A stretch of DNA of 64,000 nucleotides from Methylobacterium sp. FF17 (GTDB taxonomy: Bacteria > Pseudomonadota > Alphaproteobacteria > Rhizobiales > Beijerinckiaceae). The notes below the pieces were generated by a model that saw only the letters and a list, made by a program, of their open reading frames with translations, made no database searches and had not been told where the DNA came from. A program made the position numbers and the translations under genes. The stretch spans positions 4,666,001 through 4,730,000 of the forward strand of contig NZ_CP107532.1 in the NCBI RefSeq assembly GCF_025813715.1. The letters run 5' to 3'. This document shows positions 3,357-61,226 of this stretch, in pieces (position 1 is the stretch's first letter; the number at the start of each line of letters is the position of its first letter).

Positions 3357-5105
3357 TCACCGCATTTCATCCGGCGCGGTGACGCCCAACACCGCGAGGC
3401 CGGAGGCGACGACGCCCCGCAAAGCCTCAACGAGGGCCAATCGAGCCCGAGTGGAGTTTCGGTCACTAGGATTAATAAAACGTAATTGCGGCAAGTCTTT
3501 GCCCTTGTTCCATAAACCGTGCAGGGCACTTGCGAGTTCGTAGAGATAGAACGCCACCCGGTGCGGCTCGTGTGCGGTGGCCGCAGCCTCGATGACGCGG
3601 GGATACTGCGCGACGAGGCGCATGATCTCGACCTCGCCCGGATCGCTGAGACGCGTGAGGTCGGCCTCGCGGAGCAGGCCGGCGCGCGAGAGGTCCTCGT
3701 CCGGCAGCGCCTGCGCGGCCTGCCGGAACACCGAGACGCAGCGCGCATGGGCGTACTGCACGTAGAAGACCGGGTTCTCCTTCGACTGCTCGACCACCTT
3801 GGCGAGGTCGAAGTCGAGGGTGGCGTCGTTCTTCCGGTAGAGCATCATGAAGCGCACGGGGTCGCGCCCGACCTCGTCCACGACCTCGCGCAGCGTGATG
3901 AACTCGCCCGCGCGCTTCGACATCTTCACGGGCTCGCCCGCCCGCAGCAGCCGCACGAGCTGGCACAGCTTCACGTCGAGGGTGGCGTGCCCGTCGCTCA
4001 CCGCCTTCACGGCGGCCTGCATGCGCTTGACGTAGCCGCCGTGGTCGGCCCCGAGCACGTCGATGAGGTCGGTGGCGCCCCGGGCGATCTTGTCCCGGTG
4101 ATAGGCGATGTCGGAGGCGAAGTAGGTGAAGCTGCCGTCCGACTTCAGGAGCGGCCGGTCGACGTCGTCGCCGAATTCCACGGTGCGGAACAGGGTCTGC
4201 TCGCGGTCCTCCCAATCCTCGGGCAGCTGGCCCTTGGGCGGCGGCAGGCGGCCCTCGTAGACGAGGCCCTTTTCGCGAAGCTCCGCCAACAGGACGGGCA
4301 CCGCCGCCTTCAGGGTGGCTTCGGAGAAGAACACGTCGTGATGGATGCCGAGCCGCGCCAGGTCGGCGCGGATCAGGTCCATCATGGCGTCGATGGCGAA
4401 GGCCCGCACCTCCGGCAGCCATTCGGAATCCGGCCGGTCGAGCAGGGCGCGCCCGTGCGCCTCGGCGAGGGCCGCGCCCACCGGCACGAGGTAGTCGCCC
4501 GGGTAGAGCCCCTCGGGGACCGGGCCGACCGGCTCGCCGAGCGCCTCGCGGTAGCGCAGGAACGCCGAGCGGGCGAGCACGTCGACCTGCGCGCCCGCGT
4601 CGTTGATGTAGTATTCGCGCGTCACGTCGCGCCCGGCCGCCACCAGCAGGTTGGCCAGCGCATCGCCGAACACCGCGCCCCGGCCGTGGCCCACATGCAT
4701 CGGGCCGGTGGGGTTGGCCGAGACGTACTCGATGTTGACCTTCCCCCCCGGCATGGCGCCGCGCCCGTAGGCCTCGCCCTGGCTCAGCGCCGCCCGCACC
4801 ACGTCGTGGAAGGTCCCCGGCGCCAGGCGCAGGTTGATGAAGCCGGGGCCGGCGACGCTCGCCTCCACCACGTCCGGGTCGGCGCGCAGGGCCGCCGCCA
4901 GGGTCTCGCCCAGCGCCTTCGGGTTGGTCCGGGCCTCCTTGGCCAGCACCAGGGCGGCGTTGGTGGCGAGATCCCCGTGGCTCGCGTCGCGCGGGGGCTC
5001 CACCACCACGCGGGAAAGGTCCAGCCCCTCGGGCAGCTGCCCGGACTGGATGAGGCCCTGCACGGCCGCGCGGACGCGGGCCTCGAAGGTGGCGAAGATG
5101 TTCAT
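3357..5105 (-). CDS. argS: Arginyl-tRNA synthetase
   Basis: A class I aminoacyl-tRNA synthetase of 582 residues that charges tRNA-Arg. Visible in order: the N-terminal ArgS additional domain, the HIGH-type motif HVGH (137-140) in [13 protein letters not shown], the catalytic Rossmann domain, the KMSK-type motif KMSKRAGEF, and the C-terminal DALR anticodon-binding domain ending in APDEMR. The start [11 protein letters not shown] matches the family N-terminus, so ATG 5105 is preferred over the ATG eight codons upstream. Both ATGs lie inside a 17-bp tandem repeat and neither has a strong ribosome binding site. The SPOR gene follows 30 bp downstream. Confidence 0.97.
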
Positions 5106-5170
5106 GGGGCGCGGAAACTCATGGGGCAAGGAAACTCTTGGGGCGACGAAACTATGGAGCGACGAGATTC
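5104..5170. repeat. Four ~17-bp tandem repeats over the argS start
   Basis: Units at 5104-5120, 5121-5137, 5138-5153 (16 bp) and 5154-5170, each close to ATGGGGCGCGGAAACTC on the plus strand. The first unit contains the argS start codon in reverse complement and the second supplies another possible in-frame ATG (5129), so the repeat makes the translation start ambiguous. Confidence 0.8.
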
Positions 5171-5483
5171 ATGAGGACGTACGGATCCGCTTTGGGGGCT
5201 CGCGCGAGGCGCGTCGTCCCGGGCGGTTCCGGGGCATAGCAAGGCCGCCCCCGGGTGTCACGGCGGGCGCCCCGCCGCGCCCTCGCGGCGATCGCGGTTA
5301 CCGATGCGTTGGCGCGACCGCGTGATTTCGCCGAATCGCCGTGACCGCGCGTTCGGTCTGCCACCGGTCTGCCACATGCGCGGCGGCGCGGGGCGGCGAT
5401 TCGATAAAATTGCGCGGATCGACTTCAGCGCGGGACAGGTCCCGGGGCGGCACGGTGACGGCGTTGGACTTGAGGACGCCGCC
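5106..5483. other. Divergent intergenic region argS / LapG-like gene
   Basis: This gene-free stretch of about 380 bp separates argS (leftward) from the first LapG-like gene (rightward). It begins with the 17-bp repeat cluster and must carry both promoters. No convincing promoter boxes, operator palindrome or RNA gene could be read in it. Confidence 0.5.
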
Positions 5484-37272: not shown

Positions 37273-38253
37273 TCAGGCGAACCGCTTGGCGCCCGCCACG
37301 CAGAGGACGACCAGCCCGGTCACCGCCAGCATGGAGGGGGCGACGGGCTCGCCGAGGAGCCAGCCCGCGAGCGCCAGCCCCAGGAACGGCTGCAGCAATT
37401 GCAGCTGGCCCACGCCCGCGATGCCGCCCAGCGCCAGTCCGCGATACCAGAACACGAAGCCGACCAGCATGCTGAACACCGAGACGTAGGCGAGGCCAGC
37501 CCAGGCCGGCCAGCCGATGCGGCCCCCGGTCTCGGGCCGGATTCCCGGCCAAGTCTCGGGCCACGTCTCGGGCCAGGTCTCGGGCCAGGTCTCGGGCCAG
37601 GTCTCGGGCCAGGTCTCGGGCCAGGTCTCGGGCCAGGTCTCGGGCCAGGTCTCGGGCCAGCTCGCCAGGGCCATGACGGCCATCACCGGCAGGGCCAGGA
37701 GGAGCGACCAGGAGATGACCTGCCAGCCTCCGAGACGGCGCGACAGCACCGCCCCCTCGGCATAGCCGAGGCCGCAGAGCAGGATGGCCGCCGTCATCAG
37801 GAGATCGCCCGCGACGGAGCCGCCCCCGCCCTGCACGAGGGCGAACCCCGCCACGGCGGCCGCGCCCACGAGGGAGAACAGCCAGAAGGCGGGCCTCGGG
37901 CGCTCGCCCCCGCGCAGGACGCCGAACAGCGCGGTGGCGAGGGGCAGGATCCCGACGAACACCACCGAATGCGCGGCGGTGACGTGCTGCAGCGCCAGGG
38001 CGGTGAGCAGCGGAAAGCCCAGCACCACGCCGAGCGCCACCAGGGCCAGGGCGCCGAGGTCGTCGCGCCCCGGCCGGGGCTGGCGCAGGAGCGCCAGCAG
38101 GGCGGCGCCGAGCACGGCGGCGATCACCGCCCGGGCGGCCGTGAGGAAGAGCGGCGCGAACCCCGTCACCGCCACCCGCGTGGCCGGCAGCGAGGCGCTG
38201 AAGATGAGGACGCCCACGAGGCCGCTGCCCCACCCCGCCGTTCCGCTCCGCAT
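37273..38253 (-). CDS. EamA/DMT-superfamily transporter with WPET repeat loop
   Basis: A 326-residue inner-membrane protein with two EamA halves and about ten transmembrane helices (for example LVGVLIFSASLPATRVAV at the start and MLAVTGLVVLCVAGAKRFA at the end). Such transporters usually export amino acids or metabolites. Between about helix 7 and helix 8, the loop is expanded by nine consecutive W-P-E-T tetrapeptides, encoded by a 12-bp tandem repeat at 37547-37654. ATG 38253 is chosen because the preceding 53 codons are not membrane-like. The rest of the protein looks intact. Confidence 0.86.
   Translation of the reverse strand: MRSGTAGWGSGLVGVLIFSASLPATRVAVTGFAPLFLTAARAVIAAVLGAALLALLRQPRPGRDDLGALALVALGVVLGFPLLTALALQHVTAAHSVVFVGILPLATALFGVLRGGERPRPAFWLFSLVGAAAVAGFALVQGGGGSVAGDLLMTAAILLCGLGYAEGAVLSRRLGGWQVISWSLLLALPVMAVMALASWPETWPETWPETWPETWPETWPETWPETWPETWPETWPGIRPETGGRIGWPAWAGLAYVSVFSMLVGFVFWYRGLALGGIAGVGQLQLLQPFLGLALAGWLLGEPVAPSMLAVTGLVVLCVAGAKRFA
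37547..37654. repeat. Nine 12-bp tandem repeats (WPET) in the EamA gene
   Basis: Nine contiguous copies of a 12-bp unit (GGCCAGGTCTCG); the first two copies carry one substitution each and the other seven are identical, followed by a decayed copy. The unit is read on the reverse strand as Trp-Pro-Glu-Thr. Near identity of the copies indicates recent expansion, and the length is a multiple of three, so copy changes are frame-neutral. Confidence 0.97.
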
Positions 38254-41946: not shown

Positions 41947-42831
41947 CTAGAACGCGCCCCGCGACGCCCGCCACAGGCGCCAGAGCCGGCGCCAGCGCGG
42001 CATCTCGACGACGGTGTTCAGCGGGTCGTAGCCCGGCCGCTCCATCGCGGCGAGGTAGGGCTCCACCAGCGCCACGGGCAGGAAGGCGGGGCGCGCGGCC
42101 GGCGCGATGGTGGCGCGGGCCGCCTCGTAGGCCTTGAGGTGGCGGCGGGCGAGCGCCCGCAGGTCGGCGGTCGCGCCGAGCAGGCCCGGCCCGCCGCGCC
42201 CGGTGACGATGTCCTCGCGGGTGACGCCGTAGGATTTCAGGATGTCGGCCGGCAGGTAGACCTGGCCCGCGCGGGCGTGCCAGGGCAGCGCCCGCAGGAG
42301 GCCGGTGACGCCGTAGGCGACGCCGGCATGGCCGGCCGCCGCCGCGCCCCCGGGCTCGACCCCGTCGCAGAGGACGAGGGCGCCGAGGCGGATCAGCGCC
42401 GAGACGGTCTCGCCGCAATAGCCTTCGAGGTCGTTCACCCGGGGCATCGGGTCCTCGTAGAGGTCGAAGACGCGGGCATCGATGAGGTCGACGAAGGGCT
42501 GGCGCCCGAGCTTGCGCGCCACGATGGCGTCGTCCAGCGCGGCGGCCACGGGGTTGGCCTTCACGTCGCCCCGCGCCTCGCCCTGGAGGGCGTCGCGCCA
42601 CCATTGCAGGCGGATCTCGCCGGCCATCGGGTTCGAGGCCGCCTCGCGGACCCGCGCGATGGTGAGGCTGAAGGCGATGAGTGCGAAGAGGTGGGGCCGG
42701 GCGCTCGCGGGGGCGAACAGGGTGGCGAAGTAGCGGTCGGGGTCGCCCTCCCGCACCAGGGCCTCGCAATGCTGGAAGGCGAAGGCGAGGCTGCCCTCGG
42801 TCCGACCGGTCCGGGTCTCGGATTCCGTCAT
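41947..42831 (-). CDS. Squalene/phytoene-synthase-like protein (NDUFAF6-like)
   Basis: A 294-residue protein of the squalene/phytoene synthase family that lacks the usual Asp-rich substrate motifs: the first DxxxD region reads IAFSLTIARVREAAS and the second NDLEGYCGETVSALI. RLQWWRDAL and YLPADILKSYGV are retained. The loss of Asp motifs fits the NDUFAF6 branch, mitochondrial complex I assembly factors, rather than a carotenoid enzyme. The gene follows secF and the Mth938-like gene (an NDUFAF3 homologue), which supports that reading. It is likely the last gene of the yajC-secDF operon. Confidence 0.82.
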   Translation of the reverse strand: MTESETRTGRTEGSLAFAFQHCEALVREGDPDRYFATLFAPASARPHLFALIAFSLTIARVREAASNPMAGEIRLQWWRDALQGEARGDVKANPVAAALDDAIVARKLGRQPFVDLIDARVFDLYEDPMPRVNDLEGYCGETVSALIRLGALVLCDGVEPGGAAAAGHAGVAYGVTGLLRALPWHARAGQVYLPADILKSYGVTREDIVTGRGGPGLLGATADLRALARRHLKAYEAARATIAPAARPAFLPVALVEPYLAAMERPGYDPLNTVVEMPRWRRLWRLWRASRGAF

Positions 42832-42862
42832 GTCCAGGATTCCCTCAAGACCCGTGACTCCG

Positions 42863-43252
42863 TCATGCGACCGCGATCAGGGCGGCGGCGACCTTGCGGT
42901 TCTCCGCCATGAGGATGTTGTAGGTGCGCGCCGCCGCGCCCGTCTGCATCACGTCGAGGCCGATGCCGCCCTCCTTGAGCCAGCGCCGGAGGGCATCGGG
43001 GAAAGGCGCGATCTCGAGCCCGGTTCCGACGAGGAGGAGTTCCACCGCCCCCGCCTCGGCGAGGACGGGGCGCAACGCCGCGCGGTCGATGCCGCGCGGC
43101 TCGGTGACGTCCCAGGCCCGGACGCCGGACGGCGTCACCAGGATCGAGCCGCGATGCGACATCTCGGCGAAGCGGAAGCCGCCGTTGCCGTAGGCGTCGA
43201 TGAGGTGGCGCCCGGGAACGAAGCCGTCATGCAGGCTGCCGGTGGACGCCAT
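42863..43252 (-). CDS. Mth938-like (DUF498) protein, NDUFAF3 homologue
   Basis: A 129-residue protein of the Mth938/DUF498 family: IDAYGNGGFRFAEMSHRGSILVTPSGVRAWDV, then VELLLVGTGLEIAPFPDALRRWLKEGGIGLDVMQTGAAARTYNILMAENRKVAAALI. The human member NDUFAF3 assembles respiratory complex I. It starts 6 bp after secF and 31 bp before the squalene-synthase-like gene, in the conserved alphaproteobacterial order. A role in membrane-protein insertion or complex I assembly is inferred. Confidence 0.9.
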   Translation of the reverse strand: MASTGSLHDGFVPGRHLIDAYGNGGFRFAEMSHRGSILVTPSGVRAWDVTEPRGIDRAALRPVLAEAGAVELLLVGTGLEIAPFPDALRRWLKEGGIGLDVMQTGAAARTYNILMAENRKVAAALIAVA

Positions 43253-56330: not shown

Positions 56331-57488
56331 GTGCCTAGCCGCCCGCTCCGCCCCCGCGCCCTCGCGCTCCAGGCCCTCGTCGTGCTGGCACTCGCGGCGC
56401 TGGCGTATCTCGCCGCGACCAATGCCTCCGAAAAGCTCGCGCGCCAGGGCATCACGGCCGGGTTCGGGTTCCTGTCGCGCGCCGCCGGGTTCGACATCAG
56501 CCAGCGGCTGATCCCCTACGCGGCGGCGACCTCGACCTATCTCGACGCGTTCTGCGTCGGGCTCCTCAACACGCTGCTGGTCTCGAGCCTCGCCATCGTG
56601 CTGGCCACGGTGATCGGGTTCGCGGTGGGCATCACCCGGCTCGCGCCGAACTGGCTCGCCCGGACGCTCGCGGCCACCTATGTCGAGACGCTGCGCAACC
56701 TGCCGCTGCTGCTCCAGCTCCTGGTCTGGTACGTGGCCGTGCGGGTGGCGCTGCCCGAGGCGCGCGACCCGGCCGCCTGGGGCGGCGCCTATCTGAGCCA
56801 GCGCGGGCTGGTCCTGCCGCGCCCCGAGTTTTCCGGGGCCGCCTGGCTCGTGCCCCTCGCCGTCGCGGCGGGCCTGCTCGGTGCGTTCGCCCGGGTGCGT
56901 CGCGGGGCCCGGCGGGTCGAGGCCGGGGCCGAACCCGGCCCGGTCGCGGGGCCCGCCCTCGCCCTGGTGCTCGGCCTGCCGGCCCTGGCCTGGATCGGGC
57001 TGGCGCTCGCCGGCCACCCCGTCGCCATCGCCTGGCCGGCCCCCGGCCCCTACGGCCCCGAGGGCGGTCTCGGGGTGCTGCCGGAATTCGCCGCCCTGCT
57101 CCTCGGCCTCTCCACCTACACGGCGGCCTTCATCGCCGAGATCGTGCGCGCCGGCCTCGCCAGCGTGGCCCGCGGCCAGGGCGAGGCCGCCGCCGCCCTG
57201 GGCCTCGGCCGCGCCAAGGCTCTGCGCCTCGTCACCATCCCGCAGGCGATGCGGGTGATCGTTCCGCCGCTCACCAGCCAGTACCTCAACGTGACGAAGA
57301 ACTCGTCGCTGGCGGTGCTGATCGGCTATCCCGACCTCGTCCACGTCTTCATGGGCACCGTGCTCAACCAGACCAACCAGGCCGTGGAGGTCGTGGCGAT
57401 CACCATGGCGGTCTACCTCACCCTCAGCCTCGGCCTCGCCGCCGTGATGAACGCCTACAACCGCCGCGCGGCCCCGGTGATCCGATGA
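56331..57488 (+). CDS. aapQ: General L-amino-acid ABC transporter, permease AapQ
   Basis: A 385-residue inner-membrane permease of the HisMQ family, with an N-terminal helix, the SQRLIPYAAATSTYLDAFCVGLLNTLLVSSLAIVLATVIGF section, a large insertion typical of AapQ, and the EAA loop region GQGEAAAALGLGRAKALRLVTIPQAMRVIVPPLTSQYLN that docks on the ATPase. The GTG start at 56331 has GGGGGA upstream. Its TGA stop overlaps the ATG of the first of three 6-codon minigenes leading to aapM. Confidence 0.94.
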   Translation: MPSRPLRPRALALQALVVLALAALAYLAATNASEKLARQGITAGFGFLSRAAGFDISQRLIPYAAATSTYLDAFCVGLLNTLLVSSLAIVLATVIGFAVGITRLAPNWLARTLAATYVETLRNLPLLLQLLVWYVAVRVALPEARDPAAWGGAYLSQRGLVLPRPEFSGAAWLVPLAVAAGLLGAFARVRRGARRVEAGAEPGPVAGPALALVLGLPALAWIGLALAGHPVAIAWPAPGPYGPEGGLGVLPEFAALLLGLSTYTAAFIAEIVRAGLASVARGQGEAAAALGLGRAKALRLVTIPQAMRVIVPPLTSQYLNVTKNSSLAVLIGYPDLVHVFMGTVLNQTNQAVEVVAITMAVYLTLSLGLAAVMNAYNRRAAPVIR

Positions 57489-57550
57489 GCGGCGTGACCC
57501 GATGAGTGGCGTGACCCGATGAGCCGCGTGCCCCGATGAGTATCGTGCGC
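57483..57550 (+). repeat. Four 17-bp repeats forming a chain of six-codon minigenes
   Basis: Four 17-bp units (57483-57499, 57500-57516, 57517-57533, 57534-57550) close to CGATGAGTGGCGTGACC. Each contains ATGA. The aapQ stop (57486-57488) overlaps ATG 57485, which opens M-S-G-V-T-R-stop (57485-57505). That stop overlaps ATG 57502, giving M-S-G-V-T-R-stop (57502-57522), and that overlaps ATG 57519, giving M-S-R-V-P-R-stop (57519-57539). The last stop overlaps the aapM ATG at 57536. Because 17 is 6x3 minus 1, every unit is a complete minigene with a one-base shift. Confidence 0.92.
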
Positions 57551-58672
57551 GAAACCCTGCTGCCCCCGGCGCCCCCGCCGCGCCGGACCGGCGGGCCCCT
57601 CGGCTGGCTGCGGAACAACCTGTTCTCGGGGCCCGGCAACACCGTCGCCACGCTGGTGATCCTGGCGGGGCTGGCGCTCCTCGTGCCGCCGCTGATCCGC
57701 TTCCTCGTCACCGACGCGGTCTGGAGCGGCGCTTCGGGCGAGGCCTGCCGGCCGGAGGTCGCCGGGCATCCGGTCGGCGCCTGCTGGGCCTTCATCGGCG
57801 ACAAGATCAACTACCTCGTCTACGGCTCCTACCCGGCCGCCGAGCGCTGGCGCCCGAACCTGTTCTTCGCGCTGGTGGCCTTCGGCGCCGCCTGGATGCT
57901 GTGGCTCGACGCCCCGCGCCGGGGGCTCGGCGCGCTCTTCGTCTTCCTCGCCGGCCCGCTCCTGTCCTTCTGGCTGCTCTCGGGCGCCCCGCTCCTCGGC
58001 CTGGTGCCCGTGGCCACCAGCCTCTGGGGCGGCATGCTGGTGACCCTGGTGGTCTCGCTGGTCGGCATCGTCGCCTCCCTGCCGCTCGGCATCCTGCTGG
58101 CGCTGGGACGGCGCTCGGAGCTGCCGATCGTGCGCTATGCCTGCATCGGCTTCATCGAGTTCTGGCGCGGGGTGCCGCTGATCACCGTCCTGTTCATGGC
58201 CAACGTGATGCTGCCGCTGTTCCTGCCCGGCGACCTCACCGTGGACCGACTGGTGCGCCCCCTCGTCGGGATCGCGCTGTTCGCCTCCGCCTACATGGCC
58301 GAGGTGGTGCGCGGCGGCCTGCAGGCGATCCCCGAAGGCCAGGGGCGGGCGGCCCTGGCCCTCGGCCTGACGCGGGCCCAGGCCATGCGCCTCGTCGTCC
58401 TGCCCCAGGCCCTCAAGGTGGTGGTGCCGGGCATCGTCAACACCCTGATCGGCCTGTTCAAGGACACCACCCTGGTCTCCATCGTGGGCATCGCCGACTT
58501 CATCCGGGTGCTGGAGGCGGCCCGCGCCGATCCGCGCTGGTCGGCGCCGACGATCCCCGCCACGGCCTACGCCTTCGCGGCCCTGTTCTACCTCGCGTTC
58601 TGCTTCGCGATGGCGCGCTATGCCGGCTTCGTCGAGCGTCGGCTCGCCGCCGGGGAACGGGACCGGTCATGA
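57536..58672 (+). CDS. aapM: General L-amino-acid ABC transporter, permease AapM
   Basis: The second permease, 378 residues, of the HisMQ family. It has the long N-terminal part typical of Aap[56 protein letters not shown], and the EAA loop [35 protein letters not shown]. The ATG at 57536 is the fourth in a series of ATGA junctions; the three upstream are followed by stops within seven codons. Its own stop overlaps the aapP start by ATGA. Confidence 0.95.
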
Positions 58673-59978: not shown

Positions 59979-60280
59979 ACCGGCTTCGAGGCAAGCGACT
60001 CCCAGGCAAGCGACTCCCAGGCAAGCGACTCCCAGGCAAGCGGCTCCCAGGCAACCTCCCGCGCCGCCTTGCGTGCCCGGCATACCGGTGCGCGCCATCC
60101 CGCACGCCGCGATCCCGCCCCGCCTTGTATGATACCGAGCCTCACCGGCCCCGACCGAGGGTCGGGGCCGGCGGATGGCCGCCGCCGCGCGGTCGCGCGG
60201 GCAGACCGCGACGAGTCCGGCTCATCGCGGTCCGGTATGAGCCGCTCCGGATGGGCGAAGGGCGGCGGGGGAGACGGTCC
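59979..60280. other. Intergenic region upstream of rarD, with 15-bp repeats
   Basis: About 300 bp separate the anchored protein from rarD. The left part holds the 15-bp tandem repeat (59989-60060). The right part includes the rarD ribosome binding site. No further feature was recognised. Confidence 0.5.
59989..60060. repeat. Four and a part 15-bp tandem repeats
   Basis: Units 59989-60003, 60004-60018, 60019-60033 and 60034-60048, close to AGGCAAGCGACTCCC and nearly identical to one another, plus a decayed fifth copy to 60060. They begin 10 bp after the stop codon of the anchored protein. Confidence 0.93.
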
Positions 60281-61138: not shown

Positions 61139-61196
61139 GGGCTTTCCGGACCGGACGGGCCCGGGACGCCGACGCCCGCCGATCCTGGAGACTGCC

Positions 61197-61226
61197 ATGT
61201 CCCTGACCGTCATGTCCCTGACCGCG
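61197..61226. repeat. 15-bp duplication at a start codon
   Basis: ATGTCCCTGACCGTC at 61197-61211 is followed by an identical 12 bases and three diverged ones (61212-61226). The duplication carries the start codon of the DUF1993 gene, so the protein begins M-S-L-T-V-M-S-L-T. Confidence 0.8.

Follow-up and report, generated by a model that had tools for sequence, protein, structure and literature searches.

The aapQ-aapM junction

The window, a stretch of 64,000 nucleotides from Methylobacterium sp. FF17, contains two neighboring plus-strand genes for amino-acid ABC transporter permeases. The aapQ-like gene lies at 56331..57488 and the aapM-like gene, whose start reads ATGAGTATC, lies at 57536..58672; both are open reading frames, called genes, and matches to TIGR01726 above cut-off. 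The junction sits in an amino-acid ABC transporter operon with an aapJ-Q-M-P layout. These gene names come from an earlier sequence-only reading of the locus; the NCBIfam-type matches show the general family only. Among the matches listed, the closest named relatives of AapM are from Methylobacterium sp. J-078 and J-068, at 90 and 91% identity over the best segment.

The two genes are separated by 47 nt, a spacing composed of three 17-bp repeats that are each a six-codon open reading frame. The aapQ gene ends in ATC CGA TGA, with the stop at 57486-57488 on the plus strand. Minigene 1 (57485..57505, +; ATG AGC GGC GTG ACC CGA TGA, encoding MSGVTR) begins in an ATGA overlap with this stop, and minigene 2 (57502..57522, +; ATG AGT GGC GTG ACC CGA TGA, again MSGVTR) overlaps minigene 1 in the same way. 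Minigene 3 (57519..57539, +; ATG AGC CGC GTG CCC CGA TGA, MSRVPR) shares an ATGA with both minigene 2 and aapM. Going from aapQ through the three minigenes to aapM, ATGA is present at 4/4 stop-start contacts. The sequence confirms the unbroken ATGA chain of three 17-bp, six-codon units that the sequence-only reading had described, and the geometry it proposed for serial termination and reinitiation, in which a ribosome would pass four ATGA contacts, is borne out at this level.

Tandem Repeats Finder places the 17-bp array at 57477..57540 on the plus strand (period 17, 3.8 copies, 89% matches, score 100), extending a little into both aapQ and aapM. At the next junction in the operon, the aapM stop and aapP start share a plain 4-nt overlap (58669..58672, +, from the gene coordinates) without a minigene. 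We also searched the genome for the 17-bp unit, using a typed pattern that is one base off the true unit. With one mismatch this pattern was found at this locus only, and with two or fewer mismatches there were 29 matches, versus 17 for the reversed control; the unit is not clearly dispersed, and a dispersed element was rejected. Other tandem ATGA arrays do occur in this genome, for example with period 14 near C1:1405164 and C1:1587272 and with period 17 near C1:4613575, these being among the matches listed, which span approximately half of the chromosome.

Orthologous junctions in Methylobacterium

Long alignments matched the junction region in 45 of 111 genus genomes (counted by reading rows), and 44 junctions were read; G110 was omitted since its match stops short of the junction. 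The aapQ stop lies in an RTGA in 35/44 junctions, and 34 of these 35 connect in frame to aapM, either through a chain or by direct overlap. The exception is L299, which has a strict break before aapM. Among the 34 junctions that reach aapM, 18 contain at least one minigene and 16 contain none, some of the latter with in-frame N-terminal extensions. The nine junctions (9/44) without RTGA all have CTGA, and in seven there is a GGAG within the last aapQ codons.

The clade of ten that includes the window has 100/100 support in a tree built from 43 of the 44 junction rows, with one row omitted as too short. All ten (10/10) are unbroken, and their minigene numbers are 3 (own), 4, 2, 1, 2 (35+17), 1, 0, 1, 0, and 0, with unit number changing inside the clade. 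The unit sequences differ between these genomes, and the units are 17, 14, or 35 nt in length. The junction with four minigenes (17+14+14+14) is that of L271 from relative G088, where ATGA and GTGA contacts alternate. Outside of this clade, L282 has one 14-nt unit. A more distant group of 16 has GTGA at the aapQ stop, with an 11- or 14-nt link in 10, an in-frame arrangement in 5, and a break in 1. We gave this group less weight because the GAGG-like sequence there could equally be a ribosome binding site. Across the relatives, links of 11, 14, 17, and 35 nt are seen at the aapQ-aapM junction, and repeat number varies from 0 to 4 units between related species.

A second junction and the argS leader

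Elsewhere in the window, a 12-codon minigene (42828..42866, -) links the minus-strand gene 43252..42863, which has no NCBIfam match, to the gene at 42831..41947, as read from the sequence and from ortholog comparison. The downstream gene is squalene/phytoene-synthase-like, with the HpnD model below its cut-off. The spacing here is 35 nt, and Tandem Repeats Finder reports a 17-bp repeat at 42820-42867 (-). We read this junction in the best 30 of 111 matching genomes and dropped L487, where the walk was misplaced (n=29). The downstream gene is reached in 28/29, with 11 using minigenes and 17 reaching it directly or by in-frame extension. The minigene lengths in the 11 cases are 35, 32, six of 17, 14, 32, and 14 nt. 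In L466 the chain is strictly interrupted (TGA, 2 nt, ATG) within a longer 17-bp array. In the same ten genomes that form the aapQ-aapM clade, the second junction is strictly unbroken in 9/10. The sequence-only reading had proposed an alignment of related species as a check, looking for unit number that varies while the chain is kept, and this is the pattern found in 34/35 RTGA junctions of aapQ-aapM and in 28/29 at the second junction.

A third, degenerate 17-bp array was found by Tandem Repeats Finder in the leader of argS (5102..5173, -; argS matches TIGR00456 above cut-off). Its single intact ATGA-linked minigene is the last unit (5122-5102), and ATGA has been lost in two units. The units resemble the start of argS. 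Among 30 orthologs read over 90 nt each, L443 alone, besides the window's own genome, contains a possible remnant.

ATGA arrays across the genus

We then searched 59 genus genomes for three ATGA separated by a constant period; the match and control counts are summed rows. Period 14 gave 120 matches in 46/59 genomes, versus 13 in the reversed control, nine of which are in one genome. Period 17 gave 41 matches in 26/59 genomes versus 11 control matches in 7 genomes, and the three-ATGA pattern at this period is thus above chance. Period 16 gave 11 matches in 9/59 genomes (reversed control, 2), and period 13 gave 22 in 10/59 (reversed control, 0). Order-wide, period-14 triples were found in 119/397 genomes and 61/141 genera. 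Periods 15 and 18 were put aside as in-frame repeats; period-18 triples occur in 58/59 genus genomes, and most of the matches listed look like coding sequence.

Genes around the arrays were called with a hexamer model, for which 464 kb of the window's own genome served as training sequence. In these tallies, identical arrays were counted once and a few near-palindromic arrays were counted on both strands. A called gene start falls on the last ATG in 58/80 arrays of period 14 and 19/36 of period 17, with 1/10 for period 16 and 2/13 for period 13. The first TGA coincides with the end of an upstream gene in 24, 10, 1, and 4 arrays of periods 14, 17, 16, and 13, respectively, and both neighbors (a gene end at the first TGA and a start at the last ATG) are present in 20, 7, 0, and 1. 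In the same order, premature stops within units number 4/198, 4/77, 0/21, and 0/35. Taking periods 14 and 17 together, 77/116 arrays end on a gene start versus 3/23 for periods 13 and 16 (Fisher p = 3e-6; this and the following tests include orthologous arrays, which are few by gene clustering). When limited to tandem arrays, the comparison gives 63/93 versus 3/16 start-linked (p = 5e-4). For arrays with both neighbors the values are 27/116 versus 1/23 (p = 0.045), and for tandem arrays with both neighbors 24/93 versus 1/16 (p = 0.11). Arrays away from gene starts are distributed more evenly, at 22 for period 14, 17 for period 17, 9 for period 16, and 11 for period 13. Most start arrays are separate cases, as they precede 51 (period 14) and 18 (period 17) distinct gene clusters. 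Among periods 13, 14, 16, and 17, start-linked ATGA arrays are nearly restricted to those that are 2 mod 3.

General tandem repeats in 464 kb of the same genome were also tallied by period (0/1/2 mod 3). Those touching called gene starts number 9/0/6, those in intergenic sequence 20/11/9, and those inside genes 140/24/19. Several individual repeats were noted as well. Relative G036 carries an eight-unit 13-bp ATGA array (L368, C1:6677468-6677575) whose end does not fall on a called gene start. Within the window, a 15-bp in-frame duplication of a gene start (61196-61224, MSLTVMSLT) is an in-frame equivalent of these 2 mod 3 arrays. A 15-bp tandem array with 4.4 copies and 98% matches lies between called genes at 59989-60054, and an 11-copy 12-bp tandem array is found at 37528-37660.

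Contribution of unit length to the chain

Duplication of an ATGA-headed unit whose length is 2 mod 3 brings the TGA of the following ATGA into frame, and a chain results unless another stop intervenes. Using dinucleotide-shuffled inserts of the observed lengths, the chain reached aapM in 5% to 100% of trials, with 7.0% for the window's own junction. With length fixed, an unbroken chain is by itself weak evidence, and the information sits in the 2 mod 3 length and in the location of such arrays.

To place the arrays against unselected gene starts, we scanned 1.26 Mb consisting of the window, 20 stretches of its own genome, and 40 stretches from ten relatives. An RTGA-linked mini-ORF lies upstream of 37/323 eligible starts, versus 27 expected from shuffles. 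Beyond these values, linked mini-ORFs are not greatly enriched at gene starts in general in this 1.26 Mb, so the signal is confined to arrays. Spacings of 8, 14, 17, and 23 seemed raised on the basis of few cases; this window contributes two of the four links at period 17.

Among the start arrays, 38/77 lack a same-strand gene that ends in the 400 nt upstream, and coupling exactly at the first TGA is seen in 16 by a strict test (27 by a looser test). Coupling to a preceding gene therefore cannot fully account for the arrays. Where no such gene is present, ribosomes would have to enter the first minigene de novo.

A possible bridge for ribosomes

Based on the sequence and its comparison, we think it probable that a stop-start site was tandemly duplicated in 17-bp steps, that the copies were kept because their length preserves the overlaps, and that the resulting chain bridges aapQ to aapM. 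The original aapQ-aapM stop-start site would have been copied by slippage. A ribosome ending aapQ would then restart at the overlapping ATG, read six codons, stop, and restart, and could cross the 47-nt spacer to aapM by way of four ATGA contacts. In this way the chain would maintain coupling between the two genes across the inserted DNA, with the minigene peptides as by-products, and selection to keep translation of the downstream gene undisturbed may filter the lengths that are retained. What the sequences show directly is the geometry, the retention of that geometry among relatives that differ in unit number, and the period restriction. In the accessible part of one study, a stop-to-start gap of ~20 nt almost abolished coupling for six gene pairs in two species (PMC10666635); by this measure, a 47-nt spacer should break the coupling of aapQ to aapM unless it is bridged. 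Furthermore, an SD-like 4-mer lies ahead of the last ATG in 21/77 start arrays, versus 546/1078 ordinary starts, with an SD motif that was not taken from the genome's 16S rRNA. This scarcity fits entry by reinitiation, and also fits other SD-independent starts.

In another account, translation of aapM would begin de novo at 57536 and ribosomes would not use the minigenes. Lengths of 2 mod 3 would then persist only because reading from a stray start in the array terminates ahead of aapM and does not enter it out of frame. The 38/77 start arrays without a nearby same-strand upstream gene would suit this account, as would the fact that alphaproteobacterial starts often have no SD (half of the 1078 called starts here have no SD-like 4-mer by the motif used). 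However, aapM has no SD-like 4-mer in its 15 nt upstream window, such 4-mers are rarer at start arrays than at ordinary starts by the same motif, and 35/44 junctions retain a stop-start contact where aapQ ends. We regard independent initiation as unlikely. A regulatory role, which the sequence-only reading had raised, is only a little easier to credit. Here, unit number would be selected to set the AapQ:AapM ratio, with each termination-reinitiation step passing on part of the ribosomes and slippage supplying the variants. Close relatives do differ in unit number, from 0 to 4 with the chain intact, but tolerated neutral duplication predicts this variation equally, and selection on the ratio seems rather unlikely. 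In its broadest form, the arrays would be self-generated "micro-MIRUs" of Methylobacterium and relatives, after the mycobacterial interspersed repetitive units (MIRUs). Slippage at stop-start sites would produce in-register chains of 5- or 6-codon minigenes, whose number would be an evolvable dial on the translation ratio of neighboring subunit genes through serial termination-reinitiation. We consider this idea tentative and doubtful.

The remaining explanations appear far less plausible. The sequence-only reading had suggested that the minigenes could make short peptides, and two of the three units do encode the same peptide. Conversely, the minigene peptides differ between species. In start-linked tandem arrays, the differences between neighboring units fall at codon positions 1/2/3 in the proportions 48/54/38 (period 14) and 20/21/17 (period 17); without a third-position excess, the peptides are probably irrelevant. 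A peptide function, or action through peptidyl-tRNA drop-off, is thus very improbable. We assign a similarly slight chance to a DNA-binding array, an RNA structure, or an assembly artifact. A 17-bp repeat could in principle bind a protein, but its unit sequence is not conserved between species and is not clearly dispersed in the genome. The junction RNA folds no better than shuffled sequences (z = 0.93, with 163/200 shuffles at least as stable), and an assembly error is unlikely because comparable arrays, with the same architecture, occur at this junction in separately assembled related species. The feature itself is real and recurs, and of the readings considered the most likely is that this locally generated, MIRU-like minigene chain bridges a coupled gene pair.

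Comparison to known systems

MIRUs have a unit length of about 50-100 bp. According to a review (PMC12548453, accessible part), these repeats insert at start codons in such a way that an ORF inside the repeat is coupled at -4 nt to the gene, and the repeated units at senX3-regX3 are 77 and 53 bp (PMC4213456, accessible part), both of which are 2 mod 3 by our own arithmetic. Like the array here with its four ATGA contacts, MIRUs are repeated small ORFs with a start and stop that overlap the neighboring ORFs by 4 nt, and repeat number varies at a single operon junction, as it does here from 0 to 4 units between related species. Unlike the array, MIRUs are described as mobile and present in many places, whereas the unit here is not clearly dispersed and differs from locus to locus. 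The units here are 14-17 bp rather than the 53-77 bp of senX3-regX3, and they resemble duplicates of the start region of the gene itself. The array may thus work like a MIRU array, but we do not file it as one because its unit is not clearly dispersed and is far shorter.

Termination-reinitiation (TeRe) at ATGA overlaps is known from archaea and bacteria (PMC6728339 and PMC10666635, as far as accessible). The same 4-nt stop-start overlap is found here as four contacts in series; the pairs in those accounts are full genes, whereas here minigenes lie in series between the genes. In the axe-txe operon, the two-codon minigene mg2 lies ahead of an operon gene and affects that gene's translation in cis (PMC8708949, accessible part). 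Unlike our chain, mg2 is described as single, with two codons and no tandem ATGA chain, and its proposed action is partly through mRNA stability. Leader genes and mgtQ-mgtB are cases of short ORFs, in leaders or between genes, that aid translation of the next gene or are proposed to do so (PMC4833913 and PMC8092293, accessible parts); these differ in being single ORFs with other mechanisms. The sequence-only reading knew of no described equivalent, which is wrong in kind given the MIRUs and the single regulatory minigene of axe-txe in the sources above. For chains of 14- or 17-bp minigenes specifically, no description was found in the open-licence literature, as judged from titles and abstract openings, and the accessible part of PMC12725619 contains nothing on such duplications.

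Implications

If ribosomes do run the chain, four serial termination-reinitiation events within about 50 nt would be a natural gauge of the efficiency of one step, and the series of species with 0, 1, 2, 3, and 4 units at one junction would be ready-made for determining it per step. More broadly, a simple rule may apply, with 2 mod 3 duplications around an ATGA allowing a gene start or operon junction to absorb extra DNA unharmed.
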